A DNA stretch of 22,681 nucleotides from IMG/VR virus record IMGVR_UViG_3300042310_000245, positions 1 through 22,681 of that record; one strand, 5' to 3'. The notes beneath the pieces were generated by a model. It worked only from the letters and a program-made list of their open reading frames with translations. It was not told the origin of the DNA and searched no databases. Below are positions 12,338 to 22,681 of this stretch, in pieces. The stretch's first letter is position 1. Every line of letters begins with the position of its first letter. This stretch comes from a virus. The translations under genes and the position numbers were made by a program.

Positions 12338-12534
12338 TTTGACACCATATTACCTTGCACATCGCGCGTCATTTCATAAACGCCATACACTTTGTTGTCA
12401 CGAAACATAAACTCGCCAATGTTAGTTTTAATAATGTTTTGATACTGCCTGTGTGTTGCGTAAATTGTTAACGTTGACGCAACAGCGCCGATTAGAAACG
12501 CGCCAATGGCTATGTATAAAAGTTCATCTTTCAT
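12334..12534 (-). CDS. Small membrane protein, 66 aa
   Basis: Start at ATG 12534, which overlaps the upstream stop as ATGA and has AAAGGAAAG just upstream. An upstream in-frame start at 12588 has no such support. Residues 5-25 (LLYIAIGAFLIGAVASTLTI) form a transmembrane or signal-anchor helix. The rest (about 40 residues) is soluble and ends YEMTRDVQGNMVSK. It is probably an inner-membrane protein with a periplasmic tail. A spanin or superinfection role is possible but unsupported. Confidence 0.6.
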   Translation of the reverse strand: MKDELLYIAIGAFLIGAVASTLTIYATHRQYQNIIKTNIGEFMFRDNKVYGVYEMTRDVQGNMVSK

Positions 12535-12725
12535 TTTTTCTTTCCTTTGATTAGCGCTTTGATTTCGTCTAAATCGGTAACGCGCCACAAAAATGAGGGT
12601 GCGCCTGCTTCGGAAAATCGTTTACTGCCTATTGGAAATACACCTGACCGGCGAATATGGTAATCCATGCCAGAGCGACTGATTTTATATTGCGCACAGT
12701 ATTTTTTTATTGTTGTTTCAGTCAT
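12531..12725 (-). CDS. Small helix-turn-helix DNA-binding protein, 64 aa (excisionase/MerR-like fold)
   Basis: Start at ATG 12725 (GGGG seven bases upstream, eight-base overlap with the preceding gene); an ATG four codons earlier is less likely. The N-terminal TIKKYCAQYKISRSGMDYHI looks like a winged or basic helix-turn-helix: KKYCAQYKIS as the first helix, SRSGMDYHIRRSG as the recognition helix. A wing-like FLWRVTDLDEIKAL and a KGKKK tail follow. Small excisionase-like and phage regulatory proteins share this plan. It may regulate the early operon in which it lies, possibly by binding one of the repeat-rich regions described here. Confidence 0.6.
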   Translation of the reverse strand: MTETTIKKYCAQYKISRSGMDYHIRRSGVFPIGSKRFSEAGAPSFLWRVTDLDEIKALIKGKKK

Positions 12726-12876
12726 TGTCTGCCCCATTTACAGGCTTTTCAATTGATACCAAATCTTTTCGCCCAAGCATCAAATTATCTTCAGTTACCC
12801 AAAATAAAGCTACTTTTGCTATTGCGGTGTTTTTTGGGGCTTCAGTCCAATCTATTTTAATTTCTATATCGTTCAT
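12718..12876 (-). CDS. Small acidic protein, 52 aa, unknown function
   Basis: A clean 52-codon frame beginning MNDIEIKIDWTEAPKNTAIA and ending PVNGADND. Its ATG overlaps the upstream TGA as ATGA, and its stop overlaps the helix-turn-helix gene by eight bases. Composition is acidic with beta-type segments (AIAKVALFWV). There is no membrane segment or motif. It fills what would otherwise be a 150-base gap in a tightly packed chain, which supports it being real. Confidence 0.6.
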   Translation of the reverse strand: MNDIEIKIDWTEAPKNTAIAKVALFWVTEDNLMLGRKDLVSIEKPVNGADND

Positions 12877-15890: not shown

Positions 15891-17810
15891 ATGCCTATAC
15901 TTTATATCGATTTTGAAACAAGAAGCGAATGTGATTTGCCTAAGCACGGCGTTTACAATTACGCGCAAGATTTGACCACTGACGTGCTGTGTATGTGCTA
16001 CGCCTTTGATGATGGCAACGTGCAGACATGGACGCCTGATATGCCGTTTCCTGATGACGTGCGCAACTTCACGGGTCAGATACGGGCGCATAACGCCGCG
16101 TTTGAGCGTTTAATCTTTTGGTACGTTCTACAAATAGATTTCAAGTTGGAGCAGTTTTACTGCACCGCTGTGCAAGCACGGGCAAATTGCCTTCCGGGCA
16201 GTCTTGAAGATGTTGGTCGTGCTATCTCTAGCGAGATGCGCAAAGATTATCGTGGCAAAATGCTGGTTAAGCAGTGCTGCACTCCTCCTTTTAACACCAA
16301 GCTGTTGCCTGAGCTTATCGAGTATTGTCGCCAAGACGTGAGAACTATGCGAGCCGTGTCTACTGCACTGCGTCAGTTGACAAATGACGAGCTTGCAGAC
16401 TATCACGTTAACGAGCGTATTAACGACGCGGGTGTTCTCGTGGACGTTGACTTGTGTCGCGCCGCAATGCGCTACGCCAGTGTTGAGCTTGAGGAAATCC
16501 AATCTCGCGTCGTGGAGCTTACTGATGGCGTAATTAAGTCTGTTCGTTCACCGAAGATGCGCGAGTGGGTGCTTGAGCGTGTTGGTTCTGTCGCTCGTGA
16601 GCTAATGTGGAATGGTGAGAAGTATTCTATCGACAAAAGCGTTCGCGCTAATTTGCTGTTGATGGACGACCCTGAAGAAATTCCGCCGCACGTTGCGGAG
16701 GTTATTCAATGCGCTGATGACTTGTGGGCGTCGTCTGTTGCTAAGTTTAGCCGTCTGCTTTCCCTTGCAGATTTTGAAGACCATCGTGTGCGTGGTGCGT
16801 TTGTGTTTAATGGTGGTAGTGCGACTGGTCGAGCGTCGTCTTATGGTGCGCAGGTGCATAACTTCACGCGTAAATGCGCTAAAGAGCCTCAGCGAGTGCG
16901 TGATGATATGGTCGTTGGGCGCAATATCGTTCCGGTGCATGGCAAGCGTGTGACGGACGTTCTCAAAGGTATGCTTCGCCCTGCGCTGATGCCTGCTATT
17001 GGAAACGTGTTCGTGGTGGCAGATTGGGCAGGTATTGAAGCGCGTGTGACGCCGTGGGCGAGTTTGCAGCATGGCAGTGAAGATGTGCTTAACGTGTTTC
17101 GCAGTGGCGAGGACATTTACGTTCGCGCCGCTGCCGGTATCTTTAACCGTCCGATGGATATGATAACGCCTGACCAACGTCAGATTGGTAAGGTGGCTAT
17201 TCTGTCGTGCGGCTATATGGGCGGCGCGGGCGCGTTTGGCGCGATGGGTAAAGCGTATGGCATTTCACTGCCTGAAGCGGAGGCTAAACGTACCGTTGAC
17301 GCGTGGCGTCGCAGTAACACTTGGGCGGTGCAGTATTGGGGTGAGCTTGAGCGAGCATATATGTGCGCCATGCGCCATAAGGGGCGTGAGTTTACCGCTG
17401 GTCGCGTGACGTATCTGTTTGACGGTGTGAATTTGTGGTACGCCCTGCCGTCTGGTCGGGTGCTATGCTACCCGTCGGCATATATTGAAGACGGGTCGGT
17501 ATCTTACGCAAAGGCGGCGTGGAAACCCGCTGCTGATGCAGTCGAATGGCCGCGAGCTAGGCTATGGGCTGGACTCGCTTGTGAGAATATTACACAGGCG
17601 ATTGCAAATGATTTACTTCGTGACGCTTTGCGTCGAATCGGGCATACTGTCGTGCTTCATGTTCACGACGAGATTGTGCTGGAAGTGAAAAAAGAAGACG
17701 CGGCGACAGCCGCGCAAGACTTGGAAACCGTGATGTGTAGCGCCCCTGCGTGGGCAGAAGGATTACCCTTAGCGGTTGGTGTATCAACATTAGAGAGATA
17801 TGGAAAATGA
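15891..17810 (+). CDS. DNA polymerase, family A, with 3'-5' exonuclease
   Basis: 639 residues; the replicative polymerase of the phage. Exonuclease motifs: IDFET (Asp7, Glu9), RAHNAAFER (residues 65-73) and YCRQD (Tyr145, Asp149), all apparently intact, so proofreading is expected. Polymerase motifs: TGRASS (312-317), motif A ADWAGIEAR (377-385) with catalytic Asp378, motif B RQIGKVAILSCGYMGG (430-445), and motif C VHDE (591-594). Motif A reads DWAGIEAR rather than the DYSQIELR of Pol I, a divergent form typical of many phages. There is no 5'-3' exonuclease domain. The start is fixed because exonuclease motif I lies at residues 5-10 and no other start codon lies after the upstream stop. It overlaps the primase-helicase as ATGA. 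Confidence 0.95.
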   Translation: MPILYIDFETRSECDLPKHGVYNYAQDLTTDVLCMCYAFDDGNVQTWTPDMPFPDDVRNFTGQIRAHNAAFERLIFWYVLQIDFKLEQFYCTAVQARANCLPGSLEDVGRAISSEMRKDYRGKMLVKQCCTPPFNTKLLPELIEYCRQDVRTMRAVSTALRQLTNDELADYHVNERINDAGVLVDVDLCRAAMRYASVELEEIQSRVVELTDGVIKSVRSPKMREWVLERVGSVARELMWNGEKYSIDKSVRANLLLMDDPEEIPPHVAEVIQCADDLWASSVAKFSRLLSLADFEDHRVRGAFVFNGGSATGRASSYGAQVHNFTRKCAKEPQRVRDDMVVGRNIVPVHGKRVTDVLKGMLRPALMPAIGNVFVVADWAGIEARVTPWASLQHGSEDVLNVFRSGEDIYVRAAAGIFNRPMDMITPDQRQIGKVAILSCGYMGGAGAFGAMGKAYGISLPEAEAKRTVDAWRRSNTWAVQYWGELERAYMCAMRHKGREFTAGRVTYLFDGVNLWYALPSGRVLCYPSAYIEDGSVSYAKAAWKPAADAVEWPRARLWAGLACENITQAIANDLLRDALRRIGHTVVLHVHDEIVLEVKKEDAATAAQDLETVMCSAPAWAEGLPLAVGVSTLERYGK

Positions 17811-20083
17811 ATTTTATTAAGTATTTAGAGAGAATAGCACCTGAAGGCGAAACCGTCCTTCTAGTCAAACAAATTGCTAAAGATAACGGTCAGTTTGCAT
17901 GGCCTGCTTATCTTCCTTCTCGATACGATGGCAAGGGCGCATGGTACGGCAATACCGCGTCGTTTATCACGTCGCGCTTTAAAGATGGTAAACCGTCTGC
18001 GAGTGCGGGCAATTGCGAGTACGTTGCCTTCCTTGTGCTGGACGACATTGGCACTAAGAGTCTGCGCCCGCCTATCGAGCCGACATGGATAATGGAAACC
18101 TCACCGCAGAATTACCAATGGGGTTACACGTTTGCTTTAGATGATATGCCAACTAAGGGCGAGTTTAGCGCCGCCATTAAAGCAATCGCTGACGCTGGAT
18201 ATACTGACAGTGGCGCGATTAACCCCGTGCGTAATTTTCGCCTTCCTGCGTCAGTCAATTTGAAGCCTGACCGTGCGTCGTTCAAATCTATTCTCGTGGA
18301 GTTTCACCCTGAGCGTGAATTTACCCTTGCGCAGATATGTGCCGCGCTTGATGTTCACCCGTCTGCGGCTGGCACGGCAACAGTGCGTCCGATTGCTATT
18401 ATCGACACAGGCAACGACGATGTGCTGGAGTGGCTATCTTCGCGTGGTGACGTGATGGAGTCTGCTAACGCTGAAGGCTGGGTTGGGGTAGTTTGCCCTA
18501 ACCACGCTGAGCATACTGATGGTCAGTTGATGGGCAGATACCATCCGCTTAACCGCGCTTACTGTTGCTTTCATGGGCATTGCTCGTCGTGGGACAGCCG
18601 TACTTACCTCGCGTGGGTAGCTGAGATGGGCGGCCCTAAACACTCACATGGTCTTCGTGAAGAAATATTGGCAGAGGTCATGCACACAGCGATTGGCAAA
18701 CTCGAACCCACTGATATGTTCAGCACTGACGCGGCGGCGGCTATCATTGCAGAAGTCGAACAAAAGGAAATCGCGCGGCTTGAAAAGGCGGAGTGGTATC
18801 AACGCTTTGCTTACGTCATGTCAGACGATTCCTACTTTGATTTGCAAAACCGTCGTGAATTCTCACGTCAGACGTTCAACGCCGTGTTTCGTCATGTGTC
18901 GTGCAAAAGTATTCACTCTGACCGCAAGATAGAAGCCGCCATGAGCTTTGACGAGAATCGTCAGGTGATGGGCGCTAGAGTGCTGGCAGGTATCACCTTT
19001 GCCGCTGGTGACTCGGTGATTGCTACGCGTGACGGTGAATTGTATGGCAACCGCTGGCGTGACGCTCGTCCAGATTCATCTCGTGGCGGAAATTTGGGTG
19101 GCAATATATCCCTATGGCTTGACCACTGTAAATCGCTTGTTCCAGACGAGCGTGAGCTGGAACACATTTGGGATTACATGGCGTTCAAGGTGCAGAATCC
19201 GCGCGTTAAGATTAATCACGCTATTCTTCACGCCGGCGGTCAAGGTATCGGTAAAGATACAATGTATGCCCCATTCATTTACGCCGTGTGTGGACCTCAC
19301 TTGCGCAATTATTCGCTTATGTCTACTGACACCATTCAATCTGCGTGGGGCTATCATTTAGAAGCAGAAATTATTGTTATTAATGAGCTTAAAGAAGCAG
19401 ACAGCGCCGCCCGTCGGATGCTTGCCAACAAACTCAAGCCGGTTATCGCCGCGCCACCTGAGATGCTATCCGTTAACCGTAAAGGCCTTGCCCCGTATAA
19501 CCTTGTAAACCGTCTTGCCGTGCTTGCGTTCTCCAACGACCGTGTGCCGTTGTCACTCGAATCGGGCGACCGTCGTTGGTTTGCCACTTGGAGTACGGCG
19601 GAGCGCTTGCCTCCGCAATCGGCTACCGCTATATGGAAATGGTTTAATGACGGCGGCGGGTATGACCTTATTGCCAACTGGTTGTTCTTGCGTGATGTGT
19701 CTGCGTTCAACCCTGCTGCGCCTGCGCCTATGACAGACTTTAAAATGTCACTGGTGCAGAATGGTATGTCCGCTGTTGAGTCGTCGCTTCTTGACATGAT
19801 TACGCTGCGTATGGGTGAGTTTGCCTCCGGTGTGATTGCCTCTCCCTTTCAAGCCATCTGTGAGCGCGCCGCTATGTCGTTTGGCAGTAAACAATTTCCG
19901 CCCGCCGCGCTATTTCATGCACTTGAAGAAGCTGGGTGGGCTGATATGGGAATGTGCAATTCGCGCTCGTCTAAGACTAAAAAGCACGTCTTTTGCGCGC
20001 CTGAGTTTGCGTACATGAGCAAGTCTGCGCTGCGTGATATGGCAGAGCAAAAACCTGTTGCAAAAGTTGTAGCGATTAAGTAG
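17807..20083 (+). CDS. Primase-helicase: N-terminal primase-like domain, zinc finger and SF3 helicase
   Basis: 758 residues from ATG 17807 (ATGA overlap with the polymerase stop; an upstream ATG at 17750 lies inside the polymerase gene). Residues 1-190 resemble archaeo-eukaryotic-type primases: FLVLDDIG (Asp79-Asp80), TFALDDMP, and NFRLPASVNLKPDR (143-156), the RLP..N.K motif of RepB/PrimPol-like proteins. Residues 230-259 give a zinc-finger-like set: Cys230, His233, Cys253/254, His256, Cys259. The helicase part has Walker A AGGQGIGKDT (476-485), Walker B EIIVINE (521-527) and the SF3/D5 motif LAFSNDRVPLSLESGDRRW (573-591). It should unwind DNA and lay down primers for the Pol A upstream. A strong terminator follows at 20134-20172. 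Confidence 0.85.
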   Translation: MNFIKYLERIAPEGETVLLVKQIAKDNGQFAWPAYLPSRYDGKGAWYGNTASFITSRFKDGKPSASAGNCEYVAFLVLDDIGTKSLRPPIEPTWIMETSPQNYQWGYTFALDDMPTKGEFSAAIKAIADAGYTDSGAINPVRNFRLPASVNLKPDRASFKSILVEFHPEREFTLAQICAALDVHPSAAGTATVRPIAIIDTGNDDVLEWLSSRGDVMESANAEGWVGVVCPNHAEHTDGQLMGRYHPLNRAYCCFHGHCSSWDSRTYLAWVAEMGGPKHSHGLREEILAEVMHTAIGKLEPTDMFSTDAAAAIIAEVEQKEIARLEKAEWYQRFAYVMSDDSYFDLQNRREFSRQTFNAVFRHVSCKSIHSDRKIEAAMSFDENRQVMGARVLAGITFAAGDSVIATRDGELYGNRWRDARPDSSRGGNLGGNISLWLDHCKSLVPDERELEHIWDYMAFKVQNPRVKINHAILHAGGQGIGKDTMYAPFIYAVCGPHLRNYSLMSTDTIQSAWGYHLEAEIIVINELKEADSAARRMLANKLKPVIAAPPEMLSVNRKGLAPYNLVNRLAVLAFSNDRVPLSLESGDRRWFATWSTAERLPPQSATAIWKWFNDGGGYDLIANWLFLRDVSAFNPAAPAPMTDFKMSLVQNGMSAVESSLLDMITLRMGEFASGVIASPFQAICERAAMSFGSKQFPPAALFHALEEAGWADMGMCNSRSSKTKKHVFCAPEFAYMSKSALRDMAEQKPVAKVVAIK

Positions 20084-20133
20084 ACTAGTTGCAACAATTC
20101 TCTCTAATTGTTAGTTCATGTGTACTTAAAGTG

Positions 20134-20172
20134 TTCCTCAATTATCGGCTCGGATGATTGGGGAATTTTTTT
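20134..20172 (+). terminator. Strong intrinsic terminator of the rightward replication operon
   Basis: TCCTCAATTATC (20135-20146) pairs along its whole length with GATGATTGGGGA (20153-20164), 12 pairs including two G-U, around loop GGCTCG. Another T-A pair extends the base. Seven T follow (20166-20172). It lies about 50 bases after the primase-helicase stop. Confidence 0.9.
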
Positions 20173-20180
20173 GGCATTTG

Positions 20181-20222
20181 GTTTCGTGGCAAAAATTTGC
20201 AAATCGTTTCGTGGCAAAAATT
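20181..20222. repeat. Direct repeat pair, GTTTCGTGGCAAAAATT
   Basis: The 17-mer occurs at 20181-20197 and again at 20206-20222, a period of 25 bases, with no mismatch. The intervening bases read TGCAAATC. It resembles a pair of iterons. Confidence 0.85.
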
Positions 20223-20235
20223 GAGCGTTCATTAG

Positions 20236-20276
20236 ATTTGAAATCCTAGCCCCTACCAAATTTGAAATCCTGAGCC
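20236..20276. repeat. Direct repeat pair, ATTTGAAATCCT...AGCC
   Basis: ATTTGAAATCCT occurs at 20236-20247 and 20260-20271 (period 24). Each is followed by AGCC, directly in the first copy and after one G in the second. It adjoins the 25-base-period pair, so four repeat units lie in less than 100 bases. Confidence 0.85.
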
Positions 20277-20286
20277 TTCATATATA

Positions 20287-20306
20287 CGCGTTTCATGCGC
20301 GTTTCA
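20287..20306. repeat. Short direct repeat pair, CGCGTTTCA
   Basis: CGCGTTTCA occurs at 20287-20295 and 20298-20306 (period 11), followed by CGCGTGA. The 11-base spacing puts both copies on the same DNA face. Confidence 0.6.
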
Positions 20307-20390
20307 CGCGTGATTTTACGTCCGCGCCTGGCATTGGATAAAGTGTTTTTATAGCCTTTATCGGCTTGCTGCAAGCTGATTGAATGTTAG

Positions 20391-20503
20391 GCAATACTAG
20401 GGTATTGCTAAACTATTTATTGCAGTGTAACGGGCTTTATACGCCGTTAAATAATAGGCAATAAAAAAGGTTTTTTAAGGCCTTGCAATTGTTTGATGCA
20501 ATA
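20391..20503. promoter_or_regulatory. Cluster of five GCAATA/TATTGC motifs
   Basis: GCAATA lies at 20391-20396, 20458-20463 and 20498-20503. Its complement TATTGC lies at 20403-20408 and 20418-20423. The first and second form a hairpin (GCAATAC/GTATTGC). Two copies are preceded by TAG (TAGGCAATA). The same motif forms the inverted repeat around the clamp-operon promoter at 22191-22223. It is a candidate protein-binding site; the protein is unknown. Confidence 0.5.
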
Positions 20504-20525
20504 AAAAAAGCGCCTTTTCAGGCGC
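20503..20525 (-). terminator. Intrinsic terminator of the leftward sliding-clamp operon
   Basis: Read on the minus strand, GCGCCT (20525-20520) pairs with AGGCGC (20515-20510) around a four-base loop. It is followed by seven T (complement of 20509-20503). The rightward reading has only a weak T-rich flank. It closes the transcript that begins near 22176. Confidence 0.85.
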
Positions 20526-20533
20526 CTTCTTGT

Positions 20534-20596
20534 TTAGCTTTCCAGTAGAATTGCCAATATAGCGAATTTAACTAGAATTAAAAATACTATTAACAT
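20534..20596 (-). CDS. Possible 20-aa membrane peptide
   Basis: ATG at 20596 with GGGGT nine bases upstream, then 20 codons to TAA. The sequence MLIVFLILVKFAILAILLES is almost entirely hydrophobic, one transmembrane helix. It lies between the clamp gene and its terminator, so it is on the transcript. The short length and AT-rich context mean chance cannot be excluded. Confidence 0.3.
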   Translation of the reverse strand: MLIVFLILVKFAILAILLES

Positions 20597-20603
20597 TAGT
20601 TGT

Positions 20604-20657
20604 CTACCCCATACTCGCGCGCCACGCGTCAATTGATAAAATTCTATACTTTTTCAT
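20604..20657 (-). pseudogene. 17-codon remnant of an MKKYRILSIDAWR-type small phage protein
   Basis: The ATG overlaps the clamp stop as ATGA, a sign that a gene once started or still starts here. The frame reads MKKYRILSIDAWRASMG and stops at TAG. From memory, small phage proteins of about 60-80 residues begin with a very similar K-x-R-I-L-S-I-D-A-W-R and continue with a G-W-T-W-N-N-W-type segment. Here the codon after the glycine is TAG, one base from the expected TGG, and further stops follow. I read this as a truncated gene. A functional 17-residue peptide is the alternative. Confidence 0.4.
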
Positions 20658-21619
20658 AGTCTCATACCCATGATAATACTAGTTTGAAACGTATCGCGGT
20701 TAATTTGAATTAAACTATCACGAAAACTTAACATAATGTTTTCGTCTTTATAGCATTCAAGCGCGTTAAGTAAGTAACCAACGTCGATACCTTCACTTGT
20801 TTTTGTGCCACTTGAATGAATGAATGGCACACTTGCAAGCGTATCACCGTGATGAATAAAATCTAACGTCTTATCGGTAACAGTTAATATTACACCCTGT
20901 AATTTAGGTGGTAAAAAAGGCGTAACGTCTTTTATCGCCTGGATTAACAATTTTCTATTAACGTCAATGTCGCCGTTAATTGTCGTATTGAACACTTTTG
21001 AAAAATCAGGATAACGATGGTCAATTAACCGCACTTCAATAGTCCAATCATCGCCCGTAAATTTGGCATGAGTTTCTGTCACTGTCATCAAACAAGATGT
21101 TTTAATCTTACTTAGTATGAGTAGTGCTTCAGATGGAATTAACGCGCTAAAATCAGGGCCCGTTTCGCCTATCGCAGTATTCATGATAAGTTTATGGCCA
21201 TCACTACCAACCACTTGTAATTTATTATTTTCACGCTTGAATTGCATGCCTTTTAAATAATAGCGCACTTCTTTCGGTCCACCCGTCATCTTTAACCATT
21301 TTGAATTAATAAAGTTGGCGGGTATATGTTGAATACCAATAATTTTATTGTCATCTTTAGCAACTTGAAAAAACGCGCGTTCTGATAACGGCAACGCGTT
21401 ACCTTTAACGGTTAAATCTGCGGTGATATCTGTTAACTTAAACGCTTTAATTTTAGCTAACTCTAAAACCACGCTTTTATTGTGATGCTTATACAATTCA
21501 ACGCTTAACGTTGAAGTGTTAATCTTTACGCAGTCGCTTTCGAATTTTGCGACGTGATACCCTGCAGCGCGTTCTTTTAACGCTTGTTTTACTACTTCAG
21601 CGAAAATTATATTTTTCAT
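20654..21619 (-). CDS. dnaN-like: DNA polymerase III beta-subunit-like sliding clamp (DnaN family)
   Basis: 321 residues, against about 366 for bacterial DnaN. Domains 2 and 3 are clear: VRYYLKGMQFKRENNKLQVV plus GSDGHKL (about residues 117-143, compare VRYYLNGMLF...TDGHRL in E. coli), LIDHRYPDFSKVF (FPDYRRV), LPPKLQGVILTV (KFRGVRL), GYLLNALECYKDENIMLSFRD (about 278-298), and the terminal SIIMGMRL, the equivalent of YVVMPMRL. Domain 1 is about 20-30 residues shorter and hard to align. The protein should form a ring on DNA that tethers a polymerase. It is the third gene of a short leftward operon, with AGAGA upstream of the ATG. No clamp loader is seen in the window, so host loader use is likely. 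Confidence 0.88.
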   Translation of the reverse strand: MKNIIFAEVVKQALKERAAGYHVAKFESDCVKINTSTLSVELYKHHNKSVVLELAKIKAFKLTDITADLTVKGNALPLSERAFFQVAKDDNKIIGIQHIPANFINSKWLKMTGGPKEVRYYLKGMQFKRENNKLQVVGSDGHKLIMNTAIGETGPDFSALIPSEALLILSKIKTSCLMTVTETHAKFTGDDWTIEVRLIDHRYPDFSKVFNTTINGDIDVNRKLLIQAIKDVTPFLPPKLQGVILTVTDKTLDFIHHGDTLASVPFIHSSGTKTSEGIDVGYLLNALECYKDENIMLSFRDSLIQINRDTFQTSIIMGMRL

Positions 21620-21696
21620 TGTTATTCTCTATTTTTATTAGGTGCAAAATTACACCGCATAACGCGCGAGTTAGTCACGCGCTATACGTTGGAATC

Positions 21697-21855
21697 TTAC
21701 GCGTGCCACGCCTTGCAAGCGCGCCGACTTAAATAATAGTAGGCGCTGCTATCTGATAATTGATATTCACTAAGCATTGCGCGCGCTTCTTTTATAGTGT
21801 CAAACGCGTCGACTGTTTCAAGATAGCCTGCACTTTTACGTTGTATGTAAATCAT
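21697..21855 (-). CDS. Small conserved-looking phage protein, 52 aa
   Basis: ATG 21855 overlaps the upstream TGA as ATGA. The 52 codons begin MIYIQRKSAGYLETVDAFDT and continue with ARAMLSEYQLSDSSAYYYLS, then RRACKAWHA. From memory, this YLETVDEF ... EYxLSD ... YYYLSxRxCKAW pattern recurs in many phages and plasmids, with no assigned function. It is soluble, and the fold is probably alpha/beta. It is missed by a 60-residue cut-off but is among the more convincing small genes here. 77 bases separate it from the clamp ATG. Confidence 0.75.
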   Translation of the reverse strand: MIYIQRKSAGYLETVDAFDTIKEARAMLSEYQLSDSSAYYYLSRRACKAWHA

Positions 21856-22130
21856 AGCGCAGCTCCTATTTTCGACGCGTCAAAACAAAATGAATACCCG
21901 CGACCGTCCGCGCTATCACCATATCGCATGTTATCTAAATTCCAATTTAAGTTATGTTTAGCCACTAAAGCCTTAACTGCTTCAAAATGGCAGTCAACGC
22001 CGTCGAATTCATGCGGGTATGAAATAGTAACTTCGAAACCTTTAAAGGTGCCATGAGATGCGGTGAAGGCTTTTATTCTACTGCCGCGTGAATTTGACGC
22101 GCTTATATACTTAGTATGGATTGCAATCAT
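21852..22130 (-). CDS. Small conserved phage/plasmid protein, 92 aa, unknown function
   Basis: I choose ATG 22130 because AGAGAGA lies a few bases upstream and homologues I recall begin M-I-A-I-H-T-K-Y-I. The frame opening at 22184 would start within the promoter. The body reads IHTKYISASNSRGSRIKAFT, then HFEAVKALVAKH, and ends WNLDNMRYGDSADGRGYSFC. This is a pattern I know from hypothetical proteins of phages and plasmids (no assigned function). It probably has an alpha/beta fold with no membrane segment. It is first in the clamp operon and overlaps the next gene as ATGA. Confidence 0.75.
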   Translation of the reverse strand: MIAIHTKYISASNSRGSRIKAFTASHGTFKGFEVTISYPHEFDGVDCHFEAVKALVAKHNLNWNLDNMRYGDSADGRGYSFCFDASKIGAAL

Positions 22131-22154
22131 TGTCATTCTCTCTATAGTGTAGTT

Positions 22155-22174
22155 AGTCATCAAAATGGATGACT
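22155..22174. promoter_or_regulatory. Perfect inverted repeat in the leader of the clamp operon
   Basis: AGTCATC (22155-22161) and GATGACT (22168-22174) are perfect complements with a six-base gap. It lies immediately downstream of the predicted transcription start (about 22176), so it could be an operator or a 5'-leader hairpin. It has no T-tract. Confidence 0.55.
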
Positions 22175-22182
22175 TGCTAAAC

Positions 22183-22210
22183 ATTATAAAGCAATAAAAA
22201 TTAAATGCAA
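22183..22210 (-). promoter_or_regulatory. Predicted leftward promoter of the sliding-clamp operon
   Basis: On the minus strand TATAAT (22188-22183) is a perfect -10 box, preceded after 16 bases by TTGCAT (22210-22205). The leader to the ATG at 22130 is about 45 bases and carries AGAGAGA as Shine-Dalgarno. Confidence 0.75.
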
Positions 22211-22223
22211 CACTTTTTATTGC
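22191..22223. promoter_or_regulatory. 10-bp inverted repeat straddling the clamp-operon -35 box
   Basis: GCAATAAAAA (22191-22200) and TTTTTATTGC (22214-22223) are perfect complements separated by 13 bases that contain the -35 box. The layout is that of an operator for a dimeric regulator. The same GCAATA core is clustered at 20391-20503. Confidence 0.6.
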
Positions 22224-22257
22224 ATATAGTTGAATTGTGGTTAGTGGTATGCATTAT

Positions 22258-22289
22258 GTAGTCAGCCTAAAGGGTGTCAGACTGACTAC
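22258..22289. repeat. 8-bp inverted repeat GTAGTCAG / CTGACTAC
   Basis: GTAGTCAG at 22258-22265 and CTGACTAC at 22282-22289, with a 16-base spacer. A third copy, GTAGTCAG, lies at 22325-22332, so CTGACTAC can pair with either side. Confidence 0.8.
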
Positions 22290-22323
22290 GCGCAACCCCG
22301 CGCCTGTACTGGGCTGGAGGTGT
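22289..22323. repeat. GC-rich element, copy A
   Basis: A 35-base element beginning CGCGCAACCCCGCGCC and ending ACTGGGCTGGAGGTGT. It aligns to copy B (22453-22486) with about 29 of 34 identical positions and one gap. It is enclosed by CTGACTAC and GTAGTCAG. Confidence 0.8.
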
Positions 22324-22340
22324 TGTAGTCAGTTGTAGGT

Positions 22341-22415
22341 AGTATATTTATTATAAGATAAGAATTATAATATATACCATAATAATAATAAGGTATATAA
22401 TAATATATATAAAAG
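22341..22415. other. AT-rich tract, possible DNA-unwinding element
   Basis: About 75 bases, close to nine-tenths A/T, between the two GC-rich copies. It contains the perfect inverted repeat TATATACC (22371-22378) / GGTATATA (22392-22399). GTAGGTA (22335-22341) and TACCTAC (22433-22439) flank it as inverted copies. Confidence 0.7.
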
Positions 22416-22452
22416 ACGTGCGGGTAAAGTATTACCTACCGCTGACCACAAT

Positions 22453-22486
22453 CGCGCAAACCCACGCCACCACTGGGCGGAGGTGT
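22453..22486. repeat. GC-rich element, copy B
   Basis: A 34-base element beginning CGCGCAAACCCACGCC and ending ACTGGGCGGAGGTGT, the second copy of 22289-22323 in the same orientation. CTGACCAC precedes it, comparable to CTGACTAC before copy A. Confidence 0.8.
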
Positions 22487-22539
22487 AGGCAGTCACACTG
22501 TTTTTAATTGCCTACATATGCTTACATGACTGCCTACAC
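22483..22539. repeat. 13-bp perfect inverted repeat GTGTAGGCAGTCA / TGACTGCCTACAC
   Basis: Arms at 22483-22495 and 22527-22539, separated by 31 bases. The spacer holds a further half-site, TTGCCTACA. The arms resemble the GTAGTCAG motif on the other side of the AT-rich tract. Confidence 0.9.
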
Positions 22540-22542
22540 TAT

Positions 22543-22681
22543 CAGGGCATACAGCAGGGCATACAGCAGGGCATACAGCAGGGCATACAGCAGGGCATAC
22601 AGCAGGGCATACAGCAGGGCATACAGCAGGGCAGACAGCAGGGCAGACAGCAGGGCAGACAGCAGGGCAGACAGCAGGGCA
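22543..22681. repeat. 12-bp tandem array, CAGGGCATACAG then CAGGGCAGACAG
   Basis: Seven perfect copies of CAGGGCATACAG (22543-22626) are followed by four perfect copies of CAGGGCAGACAG (22627-22674) and a partial unit cut by the window edge. The two blocks differ by a single T-to-G change per unit. There are no spacers, so it is not a CRISPR array. Total copy number is unknown. Confidence 0.95.

Follow-up and report, generated by a model that had tools for sequence, protein, structure and literature searches.

The right end of IMG/VR virus record IMGVR_UViG_3300042310_000245, a linear contig of 22,681 bp that was analysed over its whole length (hereafter the window), carries a gene-free region that is quite probably the replication origin of the phage. 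As read from the sequence, short repeats (iterons) in this region would be bound by the C-terminal domain of the phage primase-helicase, with inward-facing iteron pairs bearing on an AT-rich tract. Iteron origins that depend on a self-loading initiator of the SF3 type are a known kind, to which this one would belong. Origin-like architecture had been proposed here by a first-pass annotation, and the proposal is supported by repeats on both sides of the contig's least stable site, by recurrence of the same layout with other words in relatives and by co-variation of the word with the initiator C-terminus. Its details are altered: the iterons (9–11 bp) and the AT core appear to be the essential parts, and the GC-rich copies and 12-bp array that it included fall outside the core.

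The region (22131–22545) is built from one degenerate word, GT[AG]G[GT][CT][AG] (fuller form (T)GTRGKYA(G), 7–9 bp), with 11 copies on both strands within 22149–22537; most of the inverted repeats of the region are copies of this word, which the first reading had overlooked. Dinucleotide shuffling of 22101–22545 (2000 shuffles) gave 1.03 copies on average and never more than five, and the second-densest 400-bp stretch of the window contains two. The cluster is the only one of its type in the contig and the corresponding cluster is the densest in six long relatives; such above-chance clustering of a short word in non-coding DNA is characteristic of iteron-type origins. From left to right the order is > 88 > 21 > 25 < 42 > 10 > [AT core] 98 < 10 < 42 > 24 < 22 <, where numbers are start-to-start distances and > and < denote the strand. 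The core thus described consists of two tandem inward-facing iterons, ∼90 bp of AT-rich DNA and two more tandem inward-facing iterons, with a pitch of about one helical turn. In the word and layout scans, the inner left pair comprises GTAGTCA (22325–22331, plus strand), which faces the AT core, and GTAGGTA 10 bp further on (22335–22341, plus), and the inner right pair comprises GTAGGTA (22433–22439, minus), also facing the core, and GTGGTCA (22443–22449, minus). The outer left copies found by the word scan are GTAGTTA (22149–22155, plus), which is conserved in relatives, and GTGGTTA (22237–22243, plus), the first of a tandem triple with an 11-bp pitch; the middle copy of the triple is degenerate in the window (GTATGCATTA) and all three are intact in relative L030 (TGTAGTCAGTG TGTAGTCAGTA TGTAGTCAGTC). 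Inverted-repeat and word scans together place two GTAGTCA copies (22258–22264, plus; 22283–22289, minus) in the arms of a GTAGTCAG...CTGACTAC hairpin, and two GTAGGCA copies (22485–22491, plus; 22531–22537, minus) in the arms of a perfect 13-bp inverted repeat (22483–22495/22527–22539), which is present as first described; a third GTAGGCA (22509–22515, minus) was found between these arms by the word scan.

Between the inner pairs lies the AT-rich core (∼77 bp, 22340–22416), the candidate DNA unwinding element, which was delimited by a stability scan. No 75-bp stretch of the contig is less stable than positions 22340–22414 (z = 5.3; runner-up site z = 2.6), and the core also holds the least stable 50 bp of the contig (z = 4.7). 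In six long relatives the least stable 50 or 75 bp fall at the matching place, including two with a different AT core. An AT-rich element beside the iterons is what is expected of the unwinding element in an iteron-type origin. The tract has its own inverted repeat, as had been noted, with 17-nt arms (22368–22384/22386–22402) that are 82% complementary and contain exact TATATACC/GGTATATA.

The remaining elements that had been assigned to the origin fared less uniformly. The two GC-rich copies were recovered by repeat search (22289–22314 and 22453–22478, 81% identity over 26 nt) and, when extended to ∼35 bp by eye with one indel allowed, occupy 22289–22323 (left, copy 1) and 22453–22486 (right, copy 2). 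They correspond to the 42-bp spacers of both '< 42 >' units and, by comparison with relatives, are spacers confined to the clade of the window. A role as ssi-like primase hairpins was rejected, as they show no supported covariation and were not seen in distant relatives. The GTAGTCAG/CTGACTAC sequences, which were said to flank the GC-rich copies, are present (22258–22265/22282–22289) but flank only the hairpin to the left of the first copy. The 12-bp tandem array of CAGGGCATACAG is a minisatellite of 11.6 units with 99% matches (22543–22681). It was rejected as an origin component: relatives have 0–18 units, other simple repeats in their place or, in many cases, nothing, and contigs break there. 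The window ends where it does because several contigs break in this array. Minisatellite types across the relatives include the 12-bp CAGGGCANACAG, 7-bp units (L068), an AGCACC type (G004) and CTGACCACCTCAGG (L043). As some units hold an iteron-like piece (TGACCAC in L043), the arrays may have been born from iterons.

Comparison with relatives, which had been proposed as a check, separates the kept elements from the variable ones: the iterons and the AT core are retained, the GC-rich copies belong to one clade only and the array varies. The block 22131–22538 aligns in ∼35 relatives at about 74–86% nucleotide identity. The AT core (TTATAATATATACCATAATAATAATAAGGTATATAATAATATATATAAAAGA) hardly varies within the main clade, and a divergent group (L049, L053–L058) has kept the iterons with a different AT core. 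More distant relatives were found by a search with the primase-helicase, to which their proteins are 56–63% identical. In most that are long enough, including GenBank entry MW202483, the gene order polymerase–primase–(clamp)–terS (small terminase gene) is kept, and the stretch before terS contains a word cluster whose word is lineage-specific: TGTAGGCAA, TGTAGTCATG, ATTGGCAA, TGTGGACAA, TTGTGGGC, TGGGTCAT or TTTAGGTA, and TGTAAAC in MW202483. The copies are concordant within a genome and changed between genomes. The same arrangement, a tandem pair followed by ∼85–117 bp of AT-rich DNA and by inverted copies, is seen with other words in L109 ('>9>[AT]99<9<50>9>22<9<'), L136 ('>9>100<9<50>9>23<9<'), L118 ('>9>[AT]86<18<54>9>19<9<'), L115 and L122. 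In 12 of the 19 distant loci the least stable 60 bp fall within the iteron cluster or 150 bp to either side of it, this span being 1–9% of each locus; the count is conservative, as the automatic word picker took a different cluster in L134 and L135, which were scored as misses. Repeated-word clusters were also seen in terminal non-coding DNA of Vibrio phage 1.185.O (L175, 42906–43187) and Thiohalocapsa phage MD04 (L177, 5–235 and 43135–43451), which are distant relatives in the helicase part; that these are origins of the same type is only suggestive. No cluster of this type was found in BPP-1 or Paracoccus KLEP18-1.

The probable reader of the iterons is indicated by a group of close relatives with initiators that are 96–100% identical and with three different words ({L115/116/117}, {L118} and {L119/123/128}). 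Initiators differ at 0–8 positions within word groups and at 25–34 between them, and 73–87% of the latter differences fall in residues 600–764 (19586–20083 of the window, plus strand; residue numbering from 17789), the C-terminal part proposed to read the iterons, which makes up 22% of the length. For three representative pairs (26–31 differences, 73–84% of them in the C-terminal winged-helix-like domain) the per-site enrichment has p = 5e-10, 8e-14 and 2e-8; these pairs share ancestry, so that the values describe each pair and are not independent tests, and the word consensuses in the pairwise table were taken by eye from the printed sequences. In the clade of the window, where the word is the same, the median C-terminal share is 33%, and only five of 617 pairs with 15–45 differences reach 0.7. 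Where they were compared between the word groups, TerS, SSB, the helicase and the VRR nuclease are 99–100% identical, the polymerase 99% (about 91% in G026) and the exonuclease 95–96%; the small genes close to the cluster are present in some of these phages and missing from others, irrespective of the word.

These identities bear on the possibility that the region is a packaging (pac/cos) site with repeats that are bound by TerS. The terS, terL and portal genes lie directly to the right of the region in relatives, with terS a few hundred base pairs away, and repeated TerS-binding boxes near terS are known from SPP1 pac and lambda cosB. TerS is nevertheless 99–100% identical in G018, G021, G022 and G031, the words of which differ (ATTGGCAA, TGTAGGCAA, TGTAGTCATG), and a wholesale change of word would not be expected under an unchanged reader. 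Contig ends fall at several places: G003 has 126 bp in common between its two ends, within the AT region, both ends of G002 lie in the array and G001 opens in a gene beside the polymerase. The genome is therefore permuted or circular, and the region does not mark a constant end of it; many contigs cross the region. A TerS site was thus rejected, packaging as a whole is quite improbable, and the packaging or genome-end artefact that the first-pass annotation had named as its own refutation is disfavoured. Since TerS is constant and the C-terminus differs between word groups, the sequence comparison makes the primase-helicase C-terminus the likely reader and TerS an unlikely one.

Recognition by another protein, either a host factor or a small phage helix-turn-helix protein (e.g. 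that encoded at 12531–12737), with the C-terminus varying for other reasons, is rather unlikely. Near-identical phages might differ in host, and the C-terminal domain shows no significant homology to a known origin-binding domain; a fold match of this kind was sought and none of significance was obtained. Against this stands the sharpness with which the primase C-terminus separates the word groups, greater than that of any other replication protein compared, and the use of the helicase C-terminal domain on iterons by SaPI Rep and Cch2 (PMC7581432).

Control of transcription, with the words serving as operators of a phage regulator for the leftward clamp and rightward late operons, is also unlikely, a shade more so. 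The region does lie between diverging transcription units in relatives, promoter-like sites number 14 versus 8.1 expected in 20083–22681 and tandem repeats at a one-turn pitch are also found in activator sites. Operators, however, need neither symmetry about an AT core nor a low-stability site, and among the near-identical phages the primase C-terminus tracks the words, whereas no small regulator gene was seen to do so; other palindromes (TGTCAAATAATTGACA) closer to terS in relatives are more operator-like. A dual role as origin and promoter is possible.

The primase-helicase (17807–20083, plus strand) consists of a RepB-like primase N-terminus, a zinc-binding-like cluster, a DUF5906/SF3-like helicase and a C-terminal winged-helix-like domain. 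The RepB_primase match is weak and below the cutoff (E = 0.0036), and no TOPRIM (DnaG-like) primase domain was matched in the protein. The helicase matches DUF5906 (E = 1.5e-9; Walker A GGQGIGKDT) and is of the D5/SF3 type, as judged from its likeness to the NrS-1 helicase, SaPI5/PriRep1 and D5-type folds. NrS-1 (6k9c/6k9e) is the best match of this part in both sequence and fold (phmmer E = 2e-4, Foldseek E = 1e-12). With the full model, Foldseek gave SaPI5 (7ola, E = 1e-5) and PriRep1 with double-stranded DNA (7pds, E = 6e-6), both with low TM-scores. The AlphaFold2 model of the C-terminal domain has the order helix–helix–(strand)–helix–helix–strand–strand–helix, and its predicted assignment as winged-helix-like is based on this topology. 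The most variable residues, 724–730 (718–724 of the model), form the loop between two predicted β-strands (the wing), and a second variable group, residues 739–743, forms the turn just before the last helix.

By analogy with SaPI Rep, Cch2 and P4 alpha, the C-terminal domain would bind the 9–11-bp iterons, and inward-facing pairs would set helicase assemblies (rings) on either side of the ∼77-bp AT tract. The tract would then melt, and the N-terminal primase would supply primers on both strands for extension by the family-A polymerase and clamp of the phage, giving a bidirectional start.

Several observations weigh against this assignment. The cumulative GC skew follows gene direction without a clear origin or terminus switch, so that the skew check that had been proposed is uninformative and skew was dropped as an origin locator. 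Least-stable sites are frequently intergenic in any case. The C-terminal model has middling confidence (predicted local distance difference test score of 75), and a Foldseek search with this domain returned many winged-helix proteins, none of them significant (best E = 0.15). Several of the distant loci lack a clear cluster or are too short. The switching of words was observed in a related group and not in the clade of the window itself, and the C-terminal part varies somewhat more than the rest even where the word is unchanged (31% of differences). Moreover, the window and L118 have nearly one word despite differences at 82 of the 164 sites of their C-terminal domains; the co-variation is clear at short range only.

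Among known systems, SaPI Rep and SCCmec Cch2 are self-loading initiator helicases with a C-terminal domain that reads short iterons (PMC7581432), and SaPI5 Rep, like the present protein, also has primase and helicase domains. The SaPI origin lies directly behind rep, whereas here the region is ∼2.1 kb from the end of the primase-helicase gene (20083), with the clamp operon in between, and this phage supplies its own family-A polymerase and clamp; the TM-scores are low, and no membership emerged at the sequence level. The alpha protein of satellite phage P4 unites in a single polypeptide a primase, a helicase and an origin-binding domain of the winged-helix kind, which recognises repeats (PMC4234260, with reference to Yeo 2002 and Ziegelin & Lanka 1995). 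Its primase is of the TOPRIM type, whereas that of the window is RepB/AEP-like by a weak match, and the C-terminal domain here has no significant structural match. For the NrS-1 polymerase, itself a primase-helicase, passages of the structure paper point to an 8-nt recognition sequence, present in two copies, as a possible origin, and an iteron array was not found in these passages (PMC7102993). In the PLE RepA_N/ori system of the Vibrio ICP1 satellite, the initiator DNA-binding domain and the iteron origin co-vary and swap as modules, with an origin-directed nuclease as a likely driver (PMC8263062); PLE iterons differ in being ∼30 bp long. The features that set the present case apart are its distance of ∼2.1 kb from the initiator gene, its position beside terS, the family-A polymerase and β-clamp of the phage and the rapid concerted switching of words.

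The AEP–SF3–winged-helix replicons pRN1 and BIP-1 have a domain order similar to that of the window protein, and for these a stem-loop origin 3′ of the gene was proposed and the repeats that were found were set aside (PMC4234260). BPP-1, in which the comparable cluster is missing, is near-identical to BIP-1. A stem-loop origin with incidental iterons would be in keeping with this shared architecture and with the long inverted repeats in the window. Single-strand hairpin covariation is weak, however, the words of the several copies change together but their layout does not, and the region is not immediately behind the primase gene; a stem-loop origin is highly improbable here. In this phage group, unlike in that proposal, the evidence points to iterons.

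The window is probably a fragment of a podovirus genome of ∼37–39 kb, as its longest relatives are 37.2–38.9 kb and MW202483, which is annotated with a P22-like portal and coat, is 38.8 kb. The region is placed between the β-clamp operon and terS. As had been stated, it is gene-free and adjoins the clamp operon: the sole open frame to the right of 22184 is of low complexity, in or beside the 12-bp array. The β-clamp-like processivity factor (20654–21619, minus strand; Pfam DNA_pol3_beta_2, E = 5.6e-11) accompanies the family-A polymerase, and among distant relatives some have a shorter version of ∼200 residues and in others none was detected. The closest gene leftward of the region (21852–22184, minus) encodes a 110-residue protein (phrog_3199) with no assigned function. 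A TTGCAT-N16-TATAAT sequence (22186–22217, minus), kept in relatives and below promoter-scan strength, is a possible promoter for leftward transcription of the clamp operon. In relatives a conserved non-coding block of ∼450–600 bp separates the region from terS, terL and portal on its right. This block between array and terS, past the window end (L068 7460–7810 and equivalents), contains repeated palindromes (TGTCAAATAATTGACA, GTCAAATAAATGAC), a TTGACA box, G runs and a highly conserved GCGCAGGCGGGGAGGACTTGACAAGACGACTGGC, and is perhaps a late promoter with operators. Elsewhere, the first open frame of the window has QQPV repeats close to its C-terminus, encoded by a 12-bp repeat (1301–1378). 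Rfam and tRNA searches of the window gave no matches, and no GenBank phage matched the region at the DNA level. Bacterial-genome matches sought for the host were mostly to contigs of metagenome-assembled genomes (e.g. Rhodoferax and betaproteobacterial bins), which are probably co-binned phage contigs, together with one weak Brevundimonas match.

Origins of uncultured phages are seldom located, and in phages with NrS-1/DUF5906-type primase-helicases the origin has hitherto been guessed, with a stem-loop or primase sites proposed. Here, the sequence by itself names an origin, a probable reader and likely specificity residues, together with a natural series of switched words. Phages with initiators that are 96–97% identical carry different words, and the approach offers a route to locating origins across the whole ∼38-kb phage group. 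More tentatively, and with the balance somewhat against it, these aquatic podoviruses may form a series of replication-specificity groups in which the word copies are switched in concert with a few initiator wing residues, so that co-infecting relatives would replicate only their own genomes or would escape origin-targeting parasites or nucleases.
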